Of a DNA stretch of 64,000 nt, positions 30,206 through 60,659 are shown piece after piece; position 1 is the first letter of the stretch, and every line of letters begins with the position of its first letter. Source of the stretch: Siphonobacter sp. BAB-5405 (GTDB lineage Bacteria > Bacteroidota > Bacteroidia > Cytophagales > Spirosomataceae); NCBI RefSeq assembly GCF_002872335.1, contig NZ_NJAG01000011.1:62001-126000 (forward strand). The letters are read 5' to 3'. Below the pieces are notes generated by a model. That model was not told the origin of the DNA. It searched no databases and saw nothing but the letters and a program-made list of their open reading frames with translations. Position numbers and translations under genes: made by a program.

Positions 30206-32095
30206 TTAAAACTGAAATCGCACGCCCGCCGTAAAGTTTCGGCCCCGGGTATTGTATCCGTAAATGTCAAAATACTGCATATCAAACAGATTACGGACAT
30301 CGCCGTATACGCGTAGGAAAGTATTGATCTGGTAGTCGGCGTAAACGTCCAGAGTGGTGTAAGGTTTCAGCTCGACAAGCTCCGTTTGGTAGGTTTCACC
30401 GTTGTAGAATCGATCTGCACGTTTCCCTAAAGAGCGTACTGTAGCGGAAGCAAATACTTTCGGGGTAATCTGATAACCCAGCGTCGCATTGACCAAAATC
30501 TTTGGGCGACGGAATAGATTATTAAACGTCGTATCGCGTCCATTCACGGGCTGCGTAACCTGCCCGGTCACGTAAGTGGCATTCGCCGTCAGCGACCAGC
30601 CGTTTGACAGGTAAGAGCCTTCGAGTTCAAACCCATGATCTTTTTGTTGATTGTAATTCACATACCGGCCATACGGAGGCTGACTGAGTGACTGGAAATC
30701 GATCACTTGTTTAATTAATCGATCAAAGTACAGTACCCGTACATTGGACTTTTTGTCTTTGCTAAACCATTGTACCCCCAGCTCCAGCGAACGACTGGTT
30801 TCCGGTTTCAGGCTTTTGTTGCCATATTCCGAATACAACTGATACAGCGTAGGCGTTCGGAAGCCACTAGAGAGATTGGCAAAGGCTTTGTATCGATCCT
30901 TGAACAGATACGAAGGGTTGATCGAATACGTAACGTTGCTTCCGTACAACGAATGGTGATTATACCGGCCACCCAATTCCAGAGCAAGGTTGGTTCGACT
31001 ACGTAACAGAGCGGTTACGTAGGCACTTATCAACTGCGTATGAGCCGTATCTTTTTGAATGGGTGGGCCGTATGGATTAGCCTGATAGGTATTTTGTGAA
31101 CGAAGATCGGCTCCCGTGATGAGATCAAACCAGGGTCGTATATTCCAGGAATGGTAGAGTTCGGCGAAATGGGTATTCCCCTCAAAACTCGACTGATCCA
31201 GCTCGGATTTCCGGTCAAAGGTCGTAAACGCATAATTGGCCGTCAGCTTTCCGAGTTTGTGCGTATACTCAAAACCCGTACCGGCCATTTTCATGGTATT
31301 GGTATAGTCGTATTGAGTACTATCCTTGAAGGCTCCCCCGTCAAGTTCATTTCGGTACCAGGAATACATGCCCCGTACTTTCCAGAGCAACTTCGATCCC
31401 AATTGGATTCCGCCGTTGAACAAGGCGTTATCCTGCCAGAAACCGTCTTTGTCGAAGTTTTGATTGCCTTTGGCATCGTATGCCGCCGAAAACCCATCGG
31501 AACGTAACCGCGTGTACTGGGCGTTGAAGTATCCGGCTTTGGAAGAACCATTCAGGCCCACCGTACCCCGAAACGTACCATAACTCCCGCCCTGTACCGT
31601 AGCCGAAGCTCCTAACGGACGGTCGCCTTCTTTTCGGGTGAAAATGTTGATGACCCCGGCTACGGCATCCGAGCCGTACAGGGTAGACTGGGCTCCTTTA
31701 AGAATTTCGATCCGTTCGATTTCGCCCACGGAGAGTAAGTTCAGATCGAAGGTATTGTTGATGCCGGAAGGATCGTAAATGGGTACACCGTCGAGAAGAA
31801 TCAAGGTATTGCCCTGGCCAGCTCCACGTACGTATACGTCCTGATTGGTACCGAGAGGCCCCTGGGCACCAACTACCATGAAGCCAGCCTGACGCGAAAG
31901 CAATTCACCGACGGACTGCGTAGCGTATTTTTGCAGGACTGAATCCGGGAGTACAGTGACGACTTTTCCGGTCTGGGAGAGTTTCTGATCGGTACGGTTG
32001 GCCGTCACGGTGACGGGTTCCAGCTGGGTTTCCTGAGCCCAAACGGCGGTCGTAGCCAACAAACAGAGAAGGGTACTTTTGGTAAAAACGCTCAT
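30206..32095 (-). CDS. btuB: BtuB-like TonB-dependent vitamin B12 receptor
   Basis: The start is the ATG at 32093-32095, which opens a signal peptide (MSVFTKSTLLCLLATTAVWA). The 629-residue protein then shows a plug domain (PVTVTANRTDQKLSQTGKVV, GVPIYDPSGINNTFDLNLL, RIEILKGAQSTLYGSDAVAG) and a C-terminal 22-strand barrel ending in FTAGVRFQF with terminal Phe. BtuB identity is inferred from the cobalamin riboswitch directly upstream and cobT-cobS-cobC downstream, plus the relatively small barrel size. It lacks the SusC-type N-terminal carboxypeptidase-like domain. Confidence 0.9.
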   Translation of the reverse strand: MSVFTKSTLLCLLATTAVWAQETQLEPVTVTANRTDQKLSQTGKVVTVLPDSVLQKYATQSVGELLSRQAGFMVVGAQGPLGTNQDVYVRGAGQGNTLILLDGVPIYDPSGINNTFDLNLLSVGEIERIEILKGAQSTLYGSDAVAGVINIFTRKEGDRPLGASATVQGGSYGTFRGTVGLNGSSKAGYFNAQYTRLRSDGFSAAYDAKGNQNFDKDGFWQDNALFNGGIQLGSKLLWKVRGMYSWYRNELDGGAFKDSTQYDYTNTMKMAGTGFEYTHKLGKLTANYAFTTFDRKSELDQSSFEGNTHFAELYHSWNIRPWFDLITGADLRSQNTYQANPYGPPIQKDTAHTQLISAYVTALLRSRTNLALELGGRYNHHSLYGSNVTYSINPSYLFKDRYKAFANLSSGFRTPTLYQLYSEYGNKSLKPETSRSLELGVQWFSKDKKSNVRVLYFDRLIKQVIDFQSLSQPPYGRYVNYNQQKDHGFELEGSYLSNGWSLTANATYVTGQVTQPVNGRDTTFNNLFRRPKILVNATLGYQITPKVFASATVRSLGKRADRFYNGETYQTELVELKPYTTLDVYADYQINTFLRVYGDVRNLFDMQYFDIYGYNTRGRNFTAGVRFQF

Positions 32096-32240
32096 CGTTT
32101 TCTGAATAAAAGAGATGATGAGCAATCCGGTTACGCGAGGCGAAAGGCATAAACGATACGGACGGGCGTCAGAGCCACCCGCCAATAGTCTACCTTTCCT
32201 AAACGACTTTTCACCCGAAAGCTCGAAATGGATTTCGTTT

Positions 32241-32485
32241 CAGGCAGGTCTTCTGGCTCGTTTCATCCCAGACGCCTTCCCATACCGGAATGCGTACAGT
32301 GGCGAATTGTCTGGAAATTGGATTGTTTTGGGTTTTGTGTTCAGCGTTTTGCGTTACTATTCATTAGAACCCCAAACGCTAAACTCACACTCGAAACGAT
32401 CCCGAAACTTACAGCTACGGGGATAGCCCCGGATTTACACCGGTGTTCCCTTTTAATCCGGTACCGGGAGGTACCGAAACCTAAA
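32241..32485 (-). ncRNA. Cobalamin riboswitch
   Basis: Read on the minus strand, the leader contains the conserved cobalamin riboswitch segments: AAAAGGGAACACCGGTG then AATCCGGGGCTATCCCCG and TAGCTGTAAG, later GCCACTG, and the B12-box variant AGCCAGAAGACCTGCC at 32242-32257. The region between GCTGTAAG and GCCACTG carries a long variable arm (about 105 bases). It lies about 150 bp upstream of the btuB ATG and should turn off btuB-cobTSC expression when B12 is bound. Confidence 0.93.
32325..32397. repeat. G/T-rich to A/C-rich intergenic element, copy 2, inside the riboswitch
   Basis: The left arm (32325-32355) contains GTTTTGGGTTTTGTG and TTCAGCGTTTTGCG; the right arm (32368-32397) reads ACCCCAAACGCTAAACTC and on. 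AGCGTTT pairs with AAACGCT, and the two arms are imperfect inverted copies around a 12-base centre. It occupies the riboswitch's variable arm. Confidence 0.65.
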
Positions 32486-32492
32486 ACGTCCG

Positions 32493-32500
32493 CAAAAGTA
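32493..32500 (-). promoter_or_regulatory. Candidate -7 element for the riboswitch-btuB transcript
   Basis: The minus strand reads TACTTTTG, an exact TANNTTTG match placed just upstream of the riboswitch 5' end. A -33 element is not obvious. Confidence 0.5.
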
Positions 32501-32551
32501 GGGAAAATAAAAATGCTGACCCGGTATTTCTCCGAATCAGCATTGGGGAAT

Positions 32552-32748
32552 GGGTTTGAGGTGCGAGTAAAGTTTCAAGTGTGAAAAGGTTTGATAGGGA
32601 TTTCAGATGAGAGAGGAGCTTGTAAGTACATTCAGATGAACCTAGGCTATGAATGTTACTAACCTATTTTGCTCAACCTTGCACTCTACTTAAACTTCAA
32701 ACTTTACTCAAACTTCAAACCCTATCAAACCACCTTTAAACCTCAAAT
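32552..32748. repeat. G/T-rich to A/C-rich intergenic element, copy 3 (large)
   Basis: The left arm (32552-32602) is G/T-rich, the right arm (32690-32748) is A/C-rich. They share an exact 12-bp inverted repeat, GGTTTGATAGGG at 32588-32599 with its complement at 32720-32731, and further weaker matches (GTTTGAGGT with ACCTCAAAT). The centre is about 90 bp. Confidence 0.6.
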
Positions 32749-32749
32749 C

Positions 32750-33361
32750 TTATTCATAACTCAAGCCATACTGTTTCAGCACCTCTTCGGGTACACCTTC
32801 CCAATTGTTGGGGGTGTTTCCTACGTAGCCGAGGTCGTCAAAGCCCATGCGAGTGGTATAGAAGCCGGTGAGCGTCATGTCACGCATTTTGTTGAAGAAA
32901 GCTACTCCCTGAGAGTACTGGGGCTTGGCCTGTTCAGGGTAGGCAATGTCATCGACGATTTCGATTTGCTGGGGCTTCGTCAGTTCTACGAACTTCTTGT
33001 TAAAGCGTTTGCGGCTTTCGCTGTCGAGCCAGGCCAGCCCACCCCGCAGGGGCGTCTGGTGTACGGGCTGGTCTTTCGCCATAAACTCGATGAACGCGGG
33101 TACGCCCGCCTGCGAGGCACTCCCCGACTTCTGATCGGCGGGAAGGATGATGTCGCAGAGGACCGTAATCGTTTTCAGCTCGTGCGGCGTAAAGAACTTT
33201 TCCGCCATGAGTTTGGCATCCCGAATGGCTTCGGATTTCTGCCGTCCACCGGGAATGGGTAGCGGTTTTTCGGGCGGTGCCGCCACCAGGTCCGTCGAAG
33301 GAACCGTAGCCATGCCCAGCGACCCGAGTGCAATGGATTTAAGTGTATCGCGACGTTTCAT
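32750..33361 (-). CDS. Gluconate 2-dehydrogenase subunit 3 family protein
   Basis: The 203-residue protein starts with RRDTLKSIALGSLGMA, a Tat-like double-Arg signal (KRRDTL), then has the family's FFTPHELKTITVLCDIILPAD motif. Such small subunits chaperone or hitchhike export of a GMC-type dehydrogenase partner. That partner, the GMC oxidoreductase, lies upstream on the same strand at 33916-35661, but the two are separated by the four-helix-bundle gene and its inverted repeats. Confidence 0.88.
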   Translation of the reverse strand: MKRRDTLKSIALGSLGMATVPSTDLVAAPPEKPLPIPGGRQKSEAIRDAKLMAEKFFTPHELKTITVLCDIILPADQKSGSASQAGVPAFIEFMAKDQPVHQTPLRGGLAWLDSESRKRFNKKFVELTKPQQIEIVDDIAYPEQAKPQYSQGVAFFNKMRDMTLTGFYTTRMGFDDLGYVGNTPNNWEGVPEEVLKQYGLSYE

Positions 33362-33378
33362 GTGTGTCAGTGTTTGAA

Positions 33379-33904
33379 GTTTTGAGTTTAGGGTTTTGAG
33401 TTGTCAGCGTGAGCTTTCCTGATCGATTACTAACTCATAGGCCATTTCTGGTTCTTCTACTTTGGAAGACGGATTACCCGATTGATACCGACTGCCTTTG
33501 ATCGTAGACTGATTTAAATACTGCATCAGTTTACGAATCATGCCAGCTATTTCATCCGCTGTTTTATAGTGATCGTCAAATACGGACTGTTTCATATAGC
33601 CACGATCCAGGGCTCGATACAATTGCGATTTTGATTCCTCTAGAGAGCCTTTGGCAATCGACAAAAAATGAACGAATTCATTTCGATTCCCGCGGCCAAA
33701 TCCTTCAGCAATGTTATCCATGACCGAATCTACAGCTCTTCGGAGCTGACGTTTATGGTCAAAATCCGTTGAAAAGGAACCCTGACTCGTCAGATCGAAA
33801 ATGGCTTTAGAAAAAAGACGAGCTTTTTGCCATACCTGTAAATCTTCGAAACGATTGACTGTAGCCATGCCAGGTATTTTAACTCAAAACACTAAACCCA
33901 AAAC
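33379..33904. mobile_element. Putative cassette: four-helix-bundle gene between 24-bp inverted repeats
   Basis: The 24-bp arms at 33379-33402 and 33881-33904 are inverted copies matching at 22 of 24 positions (core words TTTTGAG, TTTAGGG and AACTCAAAAC, ACTAAACCC). The left arm ends 1 bp from the gene's stop codon and the right arm begins 12 bp before its start, so they tightly bound the gene. The cassette sits between two genes expected to be adjacent. No transposase is encoded; mobility is an inference. Confidence 0.6.
33404..33868 (-). CDS. Four-helix-bundle protein (S23/23S-rRNA-IVS-protein family)
   Basis: The 154-residue protein has the family signature: FEDLQVWQKARLF start, DHKRQLRRAVDSVMDNIAEGFGRGNRNEFVHFLSIAKGSL(EE) across helices 2-3 and a long final helix (ADEIAGMIRKLMQYL), followed by a polar tail. 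Family members are found in rRNA intervening sequences and resemble the accessory protein of diversity-generating retroelements; this copy is free-standing. The function of this one is unknown. It is flanked by near-identical 24-bp inverted repeats and interrupts an otherwise typical dehydrogenase gene pair. Confidence 0.88.
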   Translation of the reverse strand: MATVNRFEDLQVWQKARLFSKAIFDLTSQGSFSTDFDHKRQLRRAVDSVMDNIAEGFGRGNRNEFVHFLSIAKGSLEESKSQLYRALDRGYMKQSVFDDHYKTADEIAGMIRKLMQYLNQSTIKGSRYQSGNPSSKVEEPEMAYELVIDQESSR

Positions 33905-33915
33905 GCATCAACTCT

Positions 33916-35661
33916 TTATAAATTCTTCTGTTTCACCTGATCAATGATGTAGTCACTCGTTCGCATGGACATCGCCAGGATCGTCCAGGTTACGTTTTTG
34001 TCGCCCTGGGTAACGAACGGAGCGGCGTCTACGACGAACAGGTTCTTCACGTCGTGACCCTGCATGAACGAGTTCAGAGCGGATTTTTTGGGATCGCTGC
34101 CCATCCGGACCGTACCGATTTCGTGAATGATCTTGCCAGGAGCTTCCAGACCGTAGTTCTGTTCTTTACCCGGTTTGTTTCCTAACGCAATACCGCCCAT
34201 TTCGTGGATCATTTCTTCAAACGTATCCTGCATGTGCTGGGCCTGCTTCACTTCGTTTTCCGACCATTTGTAGTGGAATCGCAGCGTAGGAATCCCGTAT
34301 TTATCAACGTTATTCGGATCGATTTCGCAGTAGTTACTTTCCAAGGGAATCGGTTCACCGCGACCGGCCATACCCACGTACGCTCCGTAGAAACGGCGGG
34401 CATCTTCTTTCAAACGCGAACCGTAACCACCCGAAGGCAATGACTTTCCATCGGTATAGGCGTACTTGCCGTTCATGCCGTGAATCCCCATGCCGTAGCC
34501 GTACATGGGCATACCCATGCCGCCGCCGTATTCGATGTGGTAGCCCCGGGGGAAGTCCAGCTTTTTGTTATCCAGCCACCAGGGTGTGTATACGTGCATA
34601 CCACCCACACCGTCTTCGTTGTACCGTTTCCGGTTCATCAGAGCCGGAATGAAGGCCGAACGGCTGGCTCCCGTCGAGTCATTCAGGTATTTACCGATGA
34701 CCCCGCTGGAGTTAGCGAGTCCATTCGGGAAACGGGCTGATTTGGAGTTCAACAGCAATCGGGCTGATTCACAGGAACTAGCCGCCAGTACCACAATCTT
34801 TCCGCGTACCGTCCGCTCCTGTAAGGTAGCGGTATCCACGTACGAAACGCCCGTACACAATCCGGTTTTCTGATCGGTCAGTACTTCGCGAACCATCGCT
34901 CCGTTGATCAGCCGGGTATTACCCGTTTTGACCGCGGGTTTGCAAAGGCAGGACGAAGAAGAAAAGTCAGCGTATACCTGACAGGCCCGGCCACACTGCG
35001 AGCAGTAGAAACACTGACCGCGTTCGTCGTTAATTTTTTTTGTCAGAATCGATAGACGCGACGGAATAACCGGAATTCCCAGATTTTTTCCCGCCTTCTT
35101 AAGCATCAATTCGTGCAAACGCGGTTTGGGAGCCGGTAAGAAATGACCGTCGGGTTCGTTGCGAAGCCCTTCTTTCGAACCGAAAATACCGATGAGTTTA
35201 TCGACTTTATCGTAATACGGAGCGACATCGTCATATGTAATCGGCCAGTCATCCCCGATGCCCGTGAGCGTTCCGCGACGAAAATCGTCGGGACCAAAAC
35301 GCAGGGAAATACGCCCCCAGTGGTTGGTACGGCCGCCGAGCATCCGGCTACGAAACCAGTGAAATTCGGTACCCGGTGCCGCTGAATACGGTTCGCCTTC
35401 CAATTGCCAGCCTCCCCAGGCGGCGTCGAAATCGCCGAAGGGACGTGTGGTACTGGCTCCGCGACGAGGGGACTCCCAGGGAAATTTCAATTGCGTAATG
35501 TACTTGGGATCAGCAGGATCGTAGTAACCTCCTGCTTCCAGTAAACAGACTTTGGCTCCGGCTTTCGATAACTGATAAGCCGCCATGCCGCCACCCGCAC
35601 CCGAGCCAACGATGATGACATCGAATACTTCGGGCGTTTCCTGGATGTGGAAATTGCTCAT
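33916..35661 (-). CDS. GMC family oxidoreductase, large subunit of a gluconate-dehydrogenase-like enzyme
   Basis: The 581-residue flavoprotein has the FAD-binding motif VIIVGSGAGGGMAAYQLSKAG near residue 15, the ELD-like segment of GMC enzymes (WGRISLRFGPDDF, GGRTNHWGR) and a C-terminal GMC_oxred_C region (IHEIGTVRMG, VDAAPFVTQGDKN). It oxidises an alcohol or sugar with FAD; the substrate is unknown. A Cys-x2-Cys-x2-Cys-x3-Cys stretch (CFYCSQCGRAC) could bind an iron-sulfur cluster as in related sugar dehydrogenases. Its export/maturation partner is likely the subunit 3 gene at 32750. No electron-transfer cytochrome is nearby. Confidence 0.9.
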   Translation of the reverse strand: MSNFHIQETPEVFDVIIVGSGAGGGMAAYQLSKAGAKVCLLEAGGYYDPADPKYITQLKFPWESPRRGASTTRPFGDFDAAWGGWQLEGEPYSAAPGTEFHWFRSRMLGGRTNHWGRISLRFGPDDFRRGTLTGIGDDWPITYDDVAPYYDKVDKLIGIFGSKEGLRNEPDGHFLPAPKPRLHELMLKKAGKNLGIPVIPSRLSILTKKINDERGQCFYCSQCGRACQVYADFSSSSCLCKPAVKTGNTRLINGAMVREVLTDQKTGLCTGVSYVDTATLQERTVRGKIVVLAASSCESARLLLNSKSARFPNGLANSSGVIGKYLNDSTGASRSAFIPALMNRKRYNEDGVGGMHVYTPWWLDNKKLDFPRGYHIEYGGGMGMPMYGYGMGIHGMNGKYAYTDGKSLPSGGYGSRLKEDARRFYGAYVGMAGRGEPIPLESNYCEIDPNNVDKYGIPTLRFHYKWSENEVKQAQHMQDTFEEMIHEMGGIALGNKPGKEQNYGLEAPGKIIHEIGTVRMGSDPKKSALNSFMQGHDVKNLFVVDAAPFVTQGDKNVTWTILAMSMRTSDYIIDQVKQKNL

Positions 35662-40426: not shown

Positions 40427-43400
40427 CGAGGCTTTGGCTGCGTACGCACCCATTGAGCGGCCGCTCCATTTTTGGCAAAAATCAGTCCGGTTCCCTGCGG
40501 CGTTTTTAGCTCGGCCGAACGTCGTACCTGCCCTTCGACGATCAAACCCGTCTGAGCGGAAGGTACGACGTTGAATTTTTGTTGTCCCATGCCTTTTAAT
40601 ACGACTCCCCGGTTGGCGTCGTAACGGCCCAGTTCGGGCAGGCACTCGAAGAAATTACCCGTCAGGATCAAATCCAGCTTTCCATCCTGATCGTAATCTA
40701 CACTGCTGATTCCATAAATGGGCGAAAACTGAACATCCCGGGGTAAGGCTTCAAAGCGGAAATTCCCCTTTCCGTCGTTCCAGAATACGCCCGTCCGGTC
40801 TTCCACGGCTGAACGCTTGAGCATACCTTCGCGGGAGCTTTCATCGAACAGGTCTTCGACCGTTTTTTCGGCGTAATCCGTAAACTTCAGGAATTTCTTT
40901 TTGATGGAAGGCACTGCTTTCTGTAAATCCTGCTTGAGTACCATGGGATAGCTTTTGCCGGTTTCGGTCCAGCAATTGATGATTTGTTCCATGGTACCAT
41001 TGCGGTCAAAATCGTTGACGTACAGCTCCGCCGGGTGCTCTGCCGAAGCATGGTACCGATTATTGCTACCCAGATTACCCGCTACCAGATCGAGATCGCC
41101 ATCGCCGTCGAGATCCCGCACGTACAGGCGATTCCACCAACCCGTCAGTTCCGACAGTTGAGGCGACCTTGCCAGGCGTTGCCCCTTTTCATTCAGGAAA
41201 ATGGTAACGGGACCCCAGTCTTCACTGATGATCAGATCGGGCCAGGAATCGCGGTTGACGTCCGCCCAGACCGCGTCAGTTACCATTCCAATTTTTGAAA
41301 ATTCCGGGATATACCGTTTGGTCATTACCTTGAATTCTCCCCGACCATTATTGACGAGCAACTGACTCTGCGGCGACACCCCGTACTGTCCGGATACCAT
41401 GCGACTTCCCACAAACAAATCCTGATCCCCATCGCGATCGAAGTCAGCCGCCGTGACACTGGAGCCGTTTAAATACAATAAGGGCAGGCGACGGTCACGA
41501 GTAAACGTTCCTTTCCCATCGTTCAGGTACAGACGATCTTCGAGTTCAGCGGAGCCGTCGATAAATTCATTCCCTCCGCTCACCACGTACAAGTCCTGGT
41601 CACCGTCCTGATCCGCGTCAAAGAAGGTGGCCGCAACGTCCTCGTACAGGCGTTCGGTATCCAGCATGATCAGCTCCTGACCTTTAAACGTACCATTGGC
41701 TTGTTGCACGAATAATTTTTTGGGCGAGCCGGAAGCCCCGCCGAGGTATACGTCATCCAAACCATCGCCGTTGACATCCCCTACGGCCAGCGGCGGTCCC
41801 TGCGTGGAGTACATCTGTTTGAGCAGTGGATCGCGATTGTAGTCCACAAACGTATTTTCTACGTGGGTATAGTCCAGGCGAGCGGGAGCCGTTGCATCAG
41901 TGAAGTAAGAAGCAGGCGTCGCTTCACTTCGAGGTACCCCGGCTTTTGATTGTCGATAATCCAGAACGAGTTCCGTATCCGCTTTTACCTTCGGGAGGGC
42001 CTGTTGCTGACCGTCCGGCCAGACAATCGTTACGGAATCAATCTTGGTTTCCGTTCCCAGGCCAAAGACCAGCGTCAGGTCTACGGAAGACTGAAAACCC
42101 CGGTTCGGCATTTGTTGCAGGAGTATCGTACGATTAGGCTGGTGCACCCGAACTTTCGCTCCGATGCCATTCCGGTTCTGATCCGTTCCTTTCAGTTTCA
42201 CCCGTAAAAAATGCTGGTGGTTACGGTCGCTGGCGTGATTGCGGTAGACCGACAGGGGTTGGTTGACGTTGCTGACAATCAGATCCAGGTCGCCGTCATT
42301 ATCCAGATCGCCGTAAGCCGATCCGTTCGAGAAGTTGGGTTCAGCGAGTCCCCACGCCTGGGCCTGATTACTGAATTTCAGATTGCCTTCGTTGCGAAAG
42401 GCATAATTGGGAATCGGTTCCGAGGGCATTTTGGGTAGAAATTCCGCAAAATTGAAGCCCTGGGTTACCACTTGTTGCATGGTCTGGTCGTCGGAAAAGA
42501 AGGAGATAAAATCCTGATCCGAAATAGTTTTATATAGACCATTCGCTACGAAAATATCCTTCTGCCCATCGTTGTCCATGTCGAATAGCAGGGCTCCCCA
42601 GCTCCAGTCGGTGGCGGCTACTCCCGCGTACTGCCCCACATCACTGAACGATAGTTTTCCCTTCGCATCCAGTCCGTTGTTAAGGTGCAGCATGTTTCGC
42701 ATGTACTGGTAATGGTAGTCCTGACTGAGCTTGAACTGTTCCAGCTCGTAACTTTCAAACAACGTGGTCGTTTTCAGTCGGCGGTCGGTGCCGGGCAACA
42801 TTTCTGTTACGAAAATATCCAGTCGTCCGTCGTTGTTCACGTCAGCTACGTCCGCTCCCATCGAGGACAGGCTGATGTGCGGAAAGGTTTCCTTCAGCGA
42901 TTCGCGGAAGGTTCCGTCGTGATTGTTGAGGTACAGATAATCGTGTTCGTAGAAATCATTGGAAACGTAGATGTCCAGCCAATCGTCGTCGTTTACGTCC
43001 CCCACGGTAATGCCTAATCCAAAACCAATGACACTTCCATAAATGCCCGCTTTCTCTGAAATATCTACGAACTGCGTGGTTACCGGAGCCGCATCTTTGT
43101 GAATGACCCGGTTTTCAAAAAACTTGTGACCGCCGTCGTAATCGCGTTGGTTCCGCAGATTTTTATAGCCCAGTCGCCCAACCGGCATGAAGCTGTTGTT
43201 AAGCAGAAACATGTCCAGATCGCCATCGCGGTCGTAGTCGAAAAAGGCGGCGTGCGTCGATACGCCCCGATCATCCAGCCCGTATTCTTTGGCTTTTTCG
43301 GTAAAGGTCAGGTTGCCGTTGTTGATAAAGAGTTCGTTGGCCCGGTCGTCATTGGGACGATTCCCTGCATTACAGATGTACAAATCCAGAAGACCATCGC

Positions 43401-43761
43401 CGTTCACATCCGCAAACGTGGCTCCGGTACTCCAGGCGTGCTTTCCTTTGATTCCGGCTTTCTCGGAAATATCCTCAAACTTAAAATTGCCTTTGTTGAG
43501 ATATAGCTTGTTATCGCCCATGTTGGACGTTAGCAACACGTCGGGCAAACTGTCATTGTTGATGTCACCGATGGCTACGCCGCCGCCGTTGTAGAAGTTT
43601 CGGTAATTGAAAATGTTCAGTTCCTTATCGTCCTTCACTTCGTTGACGAACGTAATCCCCGTTTGTTCCGCCGGGAGCGACTCAAACAGGGTTTCTTCCT
43701 GCTTCTTTCCGCACGCGGCCAGGATCAGAATCAGGGCCATTATTCGAATCAATTGCTTCAT
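40423..43761 (-). CDS. FG-GAP/VCBS repeat lipoprotein with ASPIC/UnbV domain (CRTAC1-like) 1
   Basis: The 1112-residue protein has a lipoprotein signal (start 43761, lipobox LAAC in MALILILAACGKK). It then has many FG-GAP blades with calcium-site motifs such as DINNDSLPDVLL, DVNGDGLLDLYI, DYDRDGDLDMFL and DRDGDQDLFV, interrupted near residue 520-590 by an ASPIC/UnbV module (NGIGAKVRV, GFQSSVDLTLVFGLG, IVWPDGQQQ). These are surface/periplasmic beta-propellers that bind ligands. The upstream paralog overlaps nothing but lies only 14 bp away, so the two are coexpressed with susCD. Confidence 0.92.
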   Translation of the reverse strand: MKQLIRIMALILILAACGKKQEETLFESLPAEQTGITFVNEVKDDKELNIFNYRNFYNGGGVAIGDINNDSLPDVLLTSNMGDNKLYLNKGNFKFEDISEKAGIKGKHAWSTGATFADVNGDGLLDLYICNAGNRPNDDRANELFINNGNLTFTEKAKEYGLDDRGVSTHAAFFDYDRDGDLDMFLLNNSFMPVGRLGYKNLRNQRDYDGGHKFFENRVIHKDAAPVTTQFVDISEKAGIYGSVIGFGLGITVGDVNDDDWLDIYVSNDFYEHDYLYLNNHDGTFRESLKETFPHISLSSMGADVADVNNDGRLDIFVTEMLPGTDRRLKTTTLFESYELEQFKLSQDYHYQYMRNMLHLNNGLDAKGKLSFSDVGQYAGVAATDWSWGALLFDMDNDGQKDIFVANGLYKTISDQDFISFFSDDQTMQQVVTQGFNFAEFLPKMPSEPIPNYAFRNEGNLKFSNQAQAWGLAEPNFSNGSAYGDLDNDGDLDLIVSNVNQPLSVYRNHASDRNHQHFLRVKLKGTDQNRNGIGAKVRVHQPNRTILLQQMPNRGFQSSVDLTLVFGLGTETKIDSVTIVWPDGQQQALPKVKADTELVLDYRQSKAGVPRSEATPASYFTDATAPARLDYTHVENTFVDYNRDPLLKQMYSTQGPPLAVGDVNGDGLDDVYLGGASGSPKKLFVQQANGTFKGQELIMLDTERLYEDVAATFFDADQDGDQDLYVVSGGNEFIDGSAELEDRLYLNDGKGTFTRDRRLPLLYLNGSSVTAADFDRDGDQDLFVGSRMVSGQYGVSPQSQLLVNNGRGEFKVMTKRYIPEFSKIGMVTDAVWADVNRDSWPDLIISEDWGPVTIFLNEKGQRLARSPQLSELTGWWNRLYVRDLDGDGDLDLVAGNLGSNNRYHASAEHPAELYVNDFDRNGTMEQIINCWTETGKSYPMVLKQDLQKAVPSIKKKFLKFTDYAEKTVEDLFDESSREGMLKRSAVEDRTGVFWNDGKGNFRFEALPRDVQFSPIYGISSVDYDQDGKLDLILTGNFFECLPELGRYDANRGVVLKGMGQQKFNVVPSAQTGLIVEGQVRRSAELKTPQGTGLIFAKNGAAAQWVRTQPKPR

Positions 43762-43775
43762 GGGGTATAGGGAAT

Positions 43776-46700
43776 TCACTGAATGGGGTGCGTATGGGTT
43801 TTAAATACAAGAAGCCGATCATTGTTCCGGCTAACCAGCCAGCGGGTGCCCGCTGCCGTTCGAAGGGCCTGGATGTCGCGGATTTCGCCGTTTACCGAAA
43901 ATCCGGAAAGAGGTCCGGGACTGGCTCGGAAGTTCCCTTTGCCGTCGTTGAACAGTACCAGGCCGGGGTTTGCATTATACTGCCCCTGAGCCGGATTAAC
44001 GCTGTAGAGGTTTCCGCCGGTCAGTACGTCCGGTGTTCCGTTACCGTCCACATCGCCAATCGCGAACGCGTACAGTTTTGACCATTGGGCCGGGGCTGGC
44101 AGTTCGTGAATGACAAACCGAAGGCCGCCTTTGTTTTCCAGCCAGACGGAACTGTAGCGGTTGATTTCAAATTCAGTCGCTCCGTTCAGCTCGCCTTTAT
44201 TGAAGATGTCCTCAACGGTTTTTCCGGCGAAATCAGCGTAGGTGGTAAACTTCTTATTGATGACCGAAGGAAGCTGTTTGCCCAATTCGTCTTTGCCCGC
44301 CAGTGGGTAATACGAGCCAGATTGATCTTCGTACGCCAGAATTTGTTCGGCCTGTCCATTCGAATCGATGTCTTTCACCCACATTTTCAGATGGTTAGAG
44401 CCTTTTCGCCGAAAACGACTATTCAGACCCAGGTTACCAAGTACGACATCTTCCCGCCCGTCTTTATTGAGATCGCCCCAGGCCATACGACTCCAGAAAC
44501 CTTTCATACGGGTGGATTCCGTACCGTCGGCTTCTTCCATCCGAATGGGTTTTCGGGTGAATTTTCCACCTTTTTGTACGAAGAGTTGGGGTTGCATCCA
44601 ATCGCCGATCACCAGTAGATCGGGTTTCTGGTCGCCATCAAAGTCACTCCAGTGGGCATCCGTTAGTAAACCTGCCAACCTTAATTCGGGAGCTAGCCGA
44701 TCTGTTTGATCACTGAAATTCCCTTTCCCATCATTTACGAGCAGGAAAGACCGGGGTGGTTTACCGTAGGCATAAGCCGTCACGCGGCCCGAAACGAACA
44801 AATCAATATCCCCGTCTTTATCGAAGTCCGCCGGGTACACGCCCGACTTGTTTTCCAGCATTTTCGGTAACGCCGTACTGGCTTTGGTGAATGAACCTTT
44901 TCCGTCATTGAAGTACAACAGGTCCTGTAACTGACCCATTTCGCCGTAGTATTCGTTCCCCCCCGCAACAACGTACAGATCCAGATCACCATCCCCATCG
45001 GCATCAAAAAACGTAGCGGCTACGTGTTCAGCCGAAGAATCAGCGTCGAATGCGGGTTGCTTACTACGGACCAACTGACCGTCGGGTTTCTGCATGAATA
45101 GCTGCCCGACCTTGAGCTTGGCTCCGGGAATGTAAATATCTTCCAGGCCATCGCCGTTTATGTCACCCTTGGCCAGTCGCGGGCCTTCCGTCGAAAGCTG
45201 AAAAGGCATCAGTGGTTCGCGGCTAAAGTCAAAATAATCTTTGTTTTCGTAATGCGTGTAGGGAATAGGACCGGGCTGTACTTCTTCCAGTACGGGCGTT
45301 TCGGCGGTTTTCCACCACTGCGATACTTCCTGATTTTTGGCAGAAGCATGCCGCAAGGTCAGGTTCTGGTCCGTTTTAACATTCCGCAGGATTTCTGATT
45401 TTCCATCCGGCCAGATGACCAGCAGGCTGTCGATCACGGTCTGTTTCCCTAAACCAAACGTTAACGTAGGTTCTACGGACGATTGGAACCCGCGTACGGG
45501 GCTGTTTTGCTGGTAAAACAACTGGGTACTGTCCCGCATCAATACTTTCGCCCCGACGCCAAAAACATTCGCTTTCTCTCCCTGAAACTTTACTTTCAGG
45601 TAATGATTGCCCAGCGTCTGACGGGCTGTATTTCGATACACGCCCGCGGTCTCATTGATATCATTACTGATCAGATCCAGATCGCCGTCGTTATCCAGAT
45701 CGGCGTATACCGCTCCGTTACTTATATTTTCCTTCGCAAATCCCCAGTCCGCAGAGCGGTTTTTGAAGTTGAAATCGAAAGGCCCTTTAGCAACGCCCTG
45801 GTATAAATAATTGTGCGTTTTTCCTTCGGGCATGTGTTGAATGGATCTGCGAACGGCATCTTTCACCCGTTTATCCAAGGCGGCGTATACGGAGTCCTGA
45901 AAGACGTATTTAATGTAATCCATGTTGTTGGGTCGCCGGACGATACCGTTGGTGATGAATACGTCCTTCACGCCATCGCCGTCGTAGTCGGCCCAGAGCG
46001 GTGCCCAGCTCCAGTCCGTAGCAGCCATGCCGAGTTGGGCGGCAATATCCACGAAGCGTTTACCCTGTAGGTTTAATTGCAGACAATTGCGGGCATACTG
46101 ATAGTGATACCCATAGCTGAGTTTGAACGAAAAAACGTCGAACGCATCTTCGCCCGCCGATGATTTTTCGACGGTTTCATCTTCGGGATACATATCCAGC
46201 GTCATCACGTCCAGCCAGCCATCGTTGTTGATGTCGGCCATGTCGTTGCCCATCGAAAAGCGGCTGGTATGAGCAAAAGTCTCCTTTAGTTTTTCGGTAA
46301 ACGTGCCGTTTCCATTATTGTGATAGTAGTAATCGTCTTCGTGAAAGTCGTTGGAAACGTAAAGATCTTCCCAACCGTCGTTATCCAGATCGCCCACGGA
46401 AATCCCCAGACCGTAGCCCATGGGTGCTCCGTAGATACCCGCTTTTTCGGATACATTCACAAACAAGGGTTTCGCCTGATTTTCCTTATCAATGATTTTA
46501 TTTTCGAAGAGGTAATCCCCGGCTTCGTTATCCCGCAGAAACCGGGCATTTACGTTGTTGTACGAAATGGCTTTATGAATGGCGTGGTTGAGCAGATAGC
46601 AATCCAGGTCGCCATCGTGATCGTAATCGAAAAAGGCTGCCTGCGTTGAAAAGCCCGTAAAATCCAGCCCATACTCGGCGGCCTTTTCCGTAAAGGTTCC

Positions 46701-47174
46701 GTCGTGATTGTTGATATACAGTTCGTTGGAACCTTCCAGTCCCCGGTAATTTCCGACGGCACATACGTACATATCCAGCCAGCCGTCACCGTTGACATCG
46801 GCCATACTCACGCCCGTCTGCCAGTCGGCAAAACCGCCGACGCCCGCCTGCTCGGTAATGTCTTCAAACTTCCAGTTTCCTTTATTGAGGTATAATTTAT
46901 TCTTGCCACGGTTGCTAACGAAGTACAAATCCGTTAGTCCATCGTTGTTAATGTCTCCCGCCGCTACGCCCGCTCCATTGTAGAAATACAGGTATTCGAC
47001 AATATTCAGGCTGTCATCGTCTATAACGGTATTCTGAAACGCAATACCCGTTTGGGTCGAATCCAGCGTTTCAAACAGGGGTTTTTCATGGGAAGATGTA
47101 CAGGCCGTCAAGCCTAGTAAGAAACCACTCGCTACGATTAGTACTTTCAGGACTACGTTACACTGCTCACGCAT
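43776..47174 (-). CDS. FG-GAP/VCBS repeat lipoprotein with ASPIC/UnbV domain (CRTAC1-like) 2
   Basis: The 1132-residue protein is a paralog of the next gene, with the same order of parts. The lipobox is LTAC in FLLGLTACTSSHEK, followed by FG-GAP repeats (DINNDGLTDLYF, DVNGDGWLDMYV, DYDHDGDLDCYL, DGDGDLDLYV), an ASPIC/UnbV module (NVFGVGAKVLM, GFQSSVEPTLTFGLG, VIWPDGKSE) and further propeller blades. The tandem arrangement suggests a duplicated pair that diverged. It is 87 bp downstream of susD with an imperfect hairpin between. Confidence 0.92.
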   Translation of the reverse strand: MREQCNVVLKVLIVASGFLLGLTACTSSHEKPLFETLDSTQTGIAFQNTVIDDDSLNIVEYLYFYNGAGVAAGDINNDGLTDLYFVSNRGKNKLYLNKGNWKFEDITEQAGVGGFADWQTGVSMADVNGDGWLDMYVCAVGNYRGLEGSNELYINNHDGTFTEKAAEYGLDFTGFSTQAAFFDYDHDGDLDCYLLNHAIHKAISYNNVNARFLRDNEAGDYLFENKIIDKENQAKPLFVNVSEKAGIYGAPMGYGLGISVGDLDNDGWEDLYVSNDFHEDDYYYHNNGNGTFTEKLKETFAHTSRFSMGNDMADINNDGWLDVMTLDMYPEDETVEKSSAGEDAFDVFSFKLSYGYHYQYARNCLQLNLQGKRFVDIAAQLGMAATDWSWAPLWADYDGDGVKDVFITNGIVRRPNNMDYIKYVFQDSVYAALDKRVKDAVRRSIQHMPEGKTHNYLYQGVAKGPFDFNFKNRSADWGFAKENISNGAVYADLDNDGDLDLISNDINETAGVYRNTARQTLGNHYLKVKFQGEKANVFGVGAKVLMRDSTQLFYQQNSPVRGFQSSVEPTLTFGLGKQTVIDSLLVIWPDGKSEILRNVKTDQNLTLRHASAKNQEVSQWWKTAETPVLEEVQPGPIPYTHYENKDYFDFSREPLMPFQLSTEGPRLAKGDINGDGLEDIYIPGAKLKVGQLFMQKPDGQLVRSKQPAFDADSSAEHVAATFFDADGDGDLDLYVVAGGNEYYGEMGQLQDLLYFNDGKGSFTKASTALPKMLENKSGVYPADFDKDGDIDLFVSGRVTAYAYGKPPRSFLLVNDGKGNFSDQTDRLAPELRLAGLLTDAHWSDFDGDQKPDLLVIGDWMQPQLFVQKGGKFTRKPIRMEEADGTESTRMKGFWSRMAWGDLNKDGREDVVLGNLGLNSRFRRKGSNHLKMWVKDIDSNGQAEQILAYEDQSGSYYPLAGKDELGKQLPSVINKKFTTYADFAGKTVEDIFNKGELNGATEFEINRYSSVWLENKGGLRFVIHELPAPAQWSKLYAFAIGDVDGNGTPDVLTGGNLYSVNPAQGQYNANPGLVLFNDGKGNFRASPGPLSGFSVNGEIRDIQALRTAAGTRWLVSRNNDRLLVFKTHTHPIQ

Positions 47175-59149: not shown

Positions 59150-59223
59150 CTTTTTAGTAGTCTGTTTTCCGTTTTCTGTTTCAAACCTTACGTTCAGGAA
59201 AACGGTAAACGCTATAACGAAAA

Positions 59224-60543: not shown

Positions 60544-60552
60544 GGCTTTTAT

Positions 60553-60659
60553 GTTTTGAGTTTTGCGTGTCGGGTTTAGCGTTCAGTCTAACTTTCTCGA
60601 CTTTTTGCCAAAAAGGATGGGCCAACTCCAAACGCTACACCCAAAACTCCGAACGCTAC
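60553..60659. repeat. G/T-rich to A/C-rich intergenic element, copy 5
   Basis: The left arm (60553-60586, GTTTTGAGTTTTGCG, GGGTTTAGCGTTCAG) and right arm (60624-60659, AACTCCAAACGCTACACCC, AAAACTCCGAACGCTAC) are imperfect inverted copies around a short centre. The right arm runs into the gltX stop codon at 60656-60658. Confidence 0.65.

Follow-up and report, generated by a model that had tools for sequence, protein, structure and literature searches.

Within the window (the whole 64,000-nucleotide stretch of contig NZ_NJAG01000011.1 of Siphonobacter sp. BAB-5405 that was analysed), a small gene for an S23-type four-helix-bundle protein, enclosed by inverted repeats, separates a GMC oxidoreductase gene from a dehydrogenase subunit gene, which raises the question of whether the gene and the repeats belong together and, if so, what kind of element they form. 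The explanation that is probably correct, with appreciable room for doubt, is that the arms and the S23 gene constitute one cassette, resembling an intervening sequence (IVS) and occupying operon junctions, that is akin to the 23S rRNA IVS yet non-ribosomal. The parts of this S23-heptad unit are known separately.

Anatomy of the unit

The S23-type gene (33404–33868, minus strand, 154 amino acids) is the sole gene inside the unit and matched both PF05635 (E = 3.2e-33) and TIGR02436 (E = 2.6e-30) in profile searches. Domain matches identify its neighbours as a GMC oxidoreductase gene upstream (33916–35661, minus strand) and a gluconate 2-dehydrogenase subunit 3 gene (Gluconate_2-dh3) downstream (32750–33361, minus strand). 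The two 24-nt arms (33379–33402 and 33881–33904) are 92% complementary (22/24) across a spacer of 478 nt, and their pairing score of 19 was reached in 0 of 2,000 dinucleotide shuffles. On the minus strand the upstream arm (33881–33904), which lies 12 bp 5′ of the ATG, reads as the heptads GTTTTGG, GTTTAGT and GTTTTGA followed by GTT, and the downstream arm (33372–33402, plus strand) consists of the paired part, 1 bp beyond the stop codon, plus one extra heptad. The first-pass annotation had described the inverted arms, their distances from the gene and the placement of an S23-type gene between these two neighbours, all of which was borne out. One correction applies: both arms are stretches of degenerate 7-nt repeat tracts, (GTTTNNN)n, rather than a unique 24-mer.

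The S23 protein is predicted to fold into four helices (pLDDT 86), and the solved structures closest to this model were 2gsc (Xcc0516) and 2rld, each entry with five chains; the available part of one study describes a Xanthomonas S23-type protein as a toroidal homopentamer (PMC4990558). With a pI of 6.8, against a family median of 8.7, the protein is not basic. In the predicted fold of the unit's transcript the arms pair and close it (z = −3.97). The unit lies outside rRNA, between two protein genes, with no rRNA model match in 31900–34100.

Inverted flanks at S23 genes

Flanks of 100 nt on either side of S23 genes were compared with the same flanks of neighbouring ORFs, using 125 Bacteroidota genes (from 130 loci) and 77 genes of named records (from 80 loci; those with a short flank or ORF were dropped), where the sampled loci, including the phylum-genome set, were best-scoring matches and not a random draw. 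Inverted flanks beating all 50 shuffles occurred at 56% of the 125 and 58% of the 77 S23 genes, compared to 5.6% of 250 control ORFs (drawn from 443). After removal of proteins at least 60% identical, significant inverted flanks were present at 65/120 S23 genes and 3/120 neighbour ORFs (again from the 443), leaving 55/120 S23 genes without significant arms, and strong scores (≥15) were reached by 44 S23 genes and 0 controls (120 each). When upstream and downstream flanks were paired across different elements, no strong score resulted (0/600). The flanks peak at lag 7 (Mann-Whitney p = 5.8e-20, non-redundant set), with a smaller signal in the control ORFs. By this comparison, S23 genes across many bacteria carry inverted heptad flanks that match within, and not between, elements. 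Strong arms occur in the window's own genome at the window unit only, L001 and L003 scoring 10 and 8.5, which is the range of mismatched pairs.

Most of the 90 elements scoring ≥13 have, by eye, a word of their own (e.g., GTTTNNN, AGCCGAT, GGTGCTT, GAGTGAG and GGTTCAT), such that armed S23 elements elsewhere mostly use a seven-base word other than that of the window unit; L226 and L246 resemble periods of 8 and 9. In 80 of 83 armed elements, G outnumbers C in the upstream arm. The 90 elements span records titled Clostridia, Geobacter, Vreelandella, Hydrogenedentota, Terriglobia, Peregrinibacteria and others, the labels being record titles and many of the records metagenome bins. The idea that the arm word tracks protein similarity was rejected, with only close relatives sharing words, as expected from descent alone. 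A test for wobble pairing as a sign of selection on an RNA stem was also negative: G-U pairs are not favoured among the arm mismatches (80 vs 112), which argues against such selection. The family is present in 235 of 296 sampled phylum genomes, and the S23 gene is mostly co-directional with its operon: where neighbours were present on both sides, it shared the direction of both in 156/188 cases (of 202 S23 genes), compared to 125/192 neighbour ORFs (of 300 sampled controls).

A protein search placed S23 genes in 29 plasmid records, 23 of which are cyanobacterial by name, and the flanks were examined in 14 of the 29, all cyanobacterial. Inverted flanks exceeded all 200 shuffles in 7/14 (L327, L330, L331, L332, L335, L337 and L338), with those of L332 resembling period 8, and L334 equalled its best shuffle. 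The arrays of L328 and L333 are direct, not inverted; in L329 and L336, short heptad runs precede the gene; and L326 and L339 have no heptad flanks by eye.

Inverted flanks also mark another single-gene family, the GxxExxY-type genes (PF13366; L001:2488–2874 and L351–L380), where they are significant at p ≤ 0.02 against mononucleotide shuffles in 17/29 cases (29 genes from 30 loci). A ACCACAGAG-like motif lies upstream of 9/29 and downstream of 8/29 of these genes, compared to 1 and 0 of 202 S23 genes.

Turnover at operon junctions

Genome comparison shows fixed junctions that hold an S23 unit, lack one or have had it exchanged as a whole. At the window site, G000 and G001 encode GMC proteins with 99.8% identity but S23 proteins with 52–53% identity, and their arms differ, so the S23 unit was replaced as a whole. 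By identity, the S23 protein of G000 is closest to those of G003 and G005 (73 and 76%) and that of G001 to that of G002 (72%). The corresponding S23 group (G000/G003/G005) has a tree support of 84/94, under the star of the tool, and the GMC pair G000 + G001 is starred; the histories of S23 and GMC at this site thus appear to differ. Among G000, G003 and G005 the upstream arm is 23–24/24 identical and the ORF DNA 73–85% identical.

Examination of 30 of 57 GMC matches yielded 10 loci with an S23 gene, 19 without the gene and one in another genus (L050) in which both arms are kept around a shrunken S23 ORF, a clear internal-deletion derivative. The 10 occupied loci include all six genomes of the genus, plus 4 loci in other genera with the same S23 subfamily. 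The empty sites that the first-pass annotation had proposed to look for therefore exist at this junction (19/30), all in other genera and none within the genus (6/6 occupied). Since all six genomes carry the gene here, it is an old occupant with exchanged versions and a recent insertion at the window site was rejected; of the earlier suggestion of a mobile or hairpin-forming element, what stands is that arms and gene act as a unit, and from comparison we infer that the window unit is mobile. In L044, L048, L049, L051 and L053, which are without S23, the gap of ~100 bp between GMC and subunit 3 genes resembles by eye a different long hairpin with no heptads.

Empty sites within the genus were found at other operon junctions. 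Between leuC and leuD, S23 units are present in G000, G003 and G004 (the arms of G004 being quite different), the junction is empty in G001 and G005, where the aligned pieces stand 34 and 28 bp apart, and G002 has a small gene and a PIN gene. A Gfo/Idh-type junction holds S23 in G001 and G003, a copy with two stops in G002 and one alignable over its full length in G005; it is empty in G004 (47 bp) and contains DUF433 and DUF5615 in G000. The third S23 gene of the window's own genome (L003) has no counterpart at this position in the other five species. Inspection by eye revealed no target duplication at the leuC-leuD, L003 and Gfo/Idh-type junctions, and the window unit has no exact empty site in a same-species pair. 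When stretches of G000 and G001 were compared, only 2 of the 11 larger differences listed clearly involved heptad units (the window unit and an exchanged gene-less pair). The toxin-antitoxin-like pairs at sister-species S23 junctions (unnamed small gene and PIN, L096:921–1501; DUF433 and DUF5615, L344:890–1491) were noted as well.

Heptad tracts without the gene

Within the window, 8 matches to GTTTNNNGTTTNNNGTT occur where 0.05 would be expected, 5 of them inside the S23 arms and the other three in an inverted pair (32325–32341 and 32368–32384) and a single run (59164–59180, plus strand). The first-pass annotation had the arm family recurring without the gene in at least three other places of the window, a count that is reached only when a diverged run (60547–60576, plus strand) with 77% similarity to the arm is included. 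Genome-wide, the 24-mer arm has 87 matches at ≤3 mismatches, compared to 16 for the pattern read backwards, and the tracts are tandem 7-nt intergenic repeats of the kind that defines STRR-type heptamer repeats. Many form convergent pairs without an S23 gene. Across 864 kb from G000 and G001, the 17 pairs of neighbouring tracts comprised 14 convergent ones (one or two of the 14 doubtful by eye) and 0 divergent, with orientation taken from G over C. The gene-less pairs in the examined stretches of these two genomes hold no clear S23 remains, a single weak match (E = 0.002) occurring in L288, and one gene-less pair is swapped between G000 and G001 for one with another word. Internal deletion may account for part of the scattered genome pairs. 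Ubiquitous arms with no link to the gene had been named in advance as grounds for abandoning the idea of an element; the recurrence is indeed wide, but the enrichment of arms at S23 genes and their match within elements argue against the absence of a link.

The gene-less inverted pair of the window (32325–32384, with no strand of its own) lies within a cobalamin riboswitch (RF00174, 82.9 bits; 32226–32499, minus strand) 5′ of a TonB-dependent receptor gene, where the hairpin occupies the variable part (125 nt vs 44 in the model) and is conserved in G001. Elsewhere in the window, numerous diverged direct repeats of families D1 to D7, along with others, lie at 40671–46955 and probably encode a repeat-domain protein.

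Alternative explanations

That the S23 protein is an inherited dehydrogenase accessory, with heptads as common slippage repeats lying beside its gene by chance, would accommodate the presence of the gene here in 6/6 genus genomes, the same subfamily at 4 loci of other genera, the commonness of heptad tracts genome-wide and the small period-7 signal of control ORFs. The excess of inverted flanks at S23 genes (65/120 vs 3/120), the 0/600 between-element pairings and the differing histories of S23 and GMC stand against this account, which is already disfavoured and quite unlikely. It is likewise unlikely that the arms arise as a side effect of DNA copying (slippage and hairpin template switching) on any small inserted cassette, with the S23 protein having no role. 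The arms lack a wobble bias, gene-less pairs are abundant and GxxExxY, another small cassette family, has inverted flanks (17/29), all as a copying origin would have it; however, the GxxExxY arms use other words and have no lag-7 peak, and the upstream arm is far better conserved among G000, G003 and G005 (23–24/24) than the ORF DNA (73–85%).

The alternation of S23 with a toxin-antitoxin-like pair between species at two junctions would suit an addiction module of the toxin-antitoxin type, an explanation that is very improbable given a unit without a partner gene and three S23 proteins that match no PADLOC model. That PADLOC result for the three proteins also led to rejection of a defence gene, and mobility through a reverse transcriptase was rejected for the window's own genome (RVT_1, PF00078, 0 matches).

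Relation to known elements

The preferred reading, an IVS-like cassette of operon junctions, draws on a likeness to 23S rRNA intervening sequences that had been proposed from the window sequence and that the anatomy supports. The available part of PMC4990558 describes a Coxiella 23S rRNA element that carries an S23 ORF and terminal inverted repeats, is excised by RNase III and has tandem heptamers in a number that varies between strains, and cites a Leptospira 23S rRNA IVS with an S23 ORF (Ralph and McClelland 1993, as cited in PMC4990558). As far as that part goes, the rRNA element shares with the window unit its S23 ORF and terminal inverted repeats, tandem heptamers 5′ of the start codon and a hairpin fold; in the window unit the S23 ORF lies within stem-capable terminal repeats. 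The difference is one of location, the IVS lying inside rRNA and the window unit between protein genes, so the unit is not itself a 23S IVS; 20 other S23 loci (of the 80 named) also gave no Rfam match. Arms that pair in the predicted fold, the hairpin in the riboswitch and the Coxiella-like anatomy therefore lead to the unit being read as a non-ribosomal IVS relative whose hairpin may loop out. Such a unit would spread by DNA exchange, settling in junctions where the cost of an inserted hairpin is smallest, since its arms could pair in the transcript and loop the S23 gene out of the operon message. We further infer binding of heptads by the S23 protein, which might act on those of its own arms and so help to keep or move the unit, and internal deletion would leave gene-less hairpins.

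REP/RAYT and MITE elements also comprise inverted repeats with many gene-less copies, as seen here; REP/RAYT elements have a Y1-type transposase gene and MITEs a target-site duplication. The only gene of the window unit belongs to PF05635 and is not a transposase, and no duplication was apparent by eye at the examined junctions. The fold of Avd from diversity-generating retroelements (4dwl) resembles that of the S23 model, with a TM of 0.85 over the target at weak significance (E 0.14), and such elements need a reverse transcriptase, which the PF00078 search of the window's own genome did not return.

Intergenic heptamer repeats are described in the available parts of two further studies, for Xanthomonas and Nostoc (with 70 and 75 convergent pairs in Xanthomonas; PMC4692102) and for Beggiatoaceae (TAACTGA repeats; PMC4679880). 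These are intergenic as here; the same parts contain no mention of 'S23' or 'four helix', and in the present elements heptads bound an S23 gene. In the open-access literature searched, which leaves most subscription papers aside, no paper was found linking S23 genes of protein operons with inverted heptad arms, and PMC4990558 alone links S23 with heptamers. The findings suggest that gene cassettes of this type, related to rRNA insertions, are widespread and have drawn little notice, and they give a common family (235/296 phylum genomes) the heptad arms as a candidate physical partner. A bolder proposal, put forward tentatively and more doubtful than not, is that S23 is the addressing factor of pan-bacterial, recombinase-free intra-operon elements, in which each ring would recognise the heptad word of its own inverted arms, each subunit perhaps reading one heptad, and would spread or protect gene-bearing and gene-less copies; the unexplained cyanobacterial, Xanthomonas and Beggiatoaceae heptamers would then, like the rRNA intervening sequences, be manifestations of a single class.

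Three puzzles are joined in this way: the rRNA intervening sequences, the S23 genes scattered among operons, including cas genes, and the bacterial heptamer repeats. An S23 gene within an operon should be taken with caution and not as a member of the pathway of that operon. The available part of PMC3936711 places S23 genes in cas loci, often beside cas4 or cas6, and reports them among CRISPR-Cas-associated functions; there, as in the window, S23 stands among operon genes, and three such genes of the present set (L328, L332 and L335) sit in period-7 or period-8 arrays.
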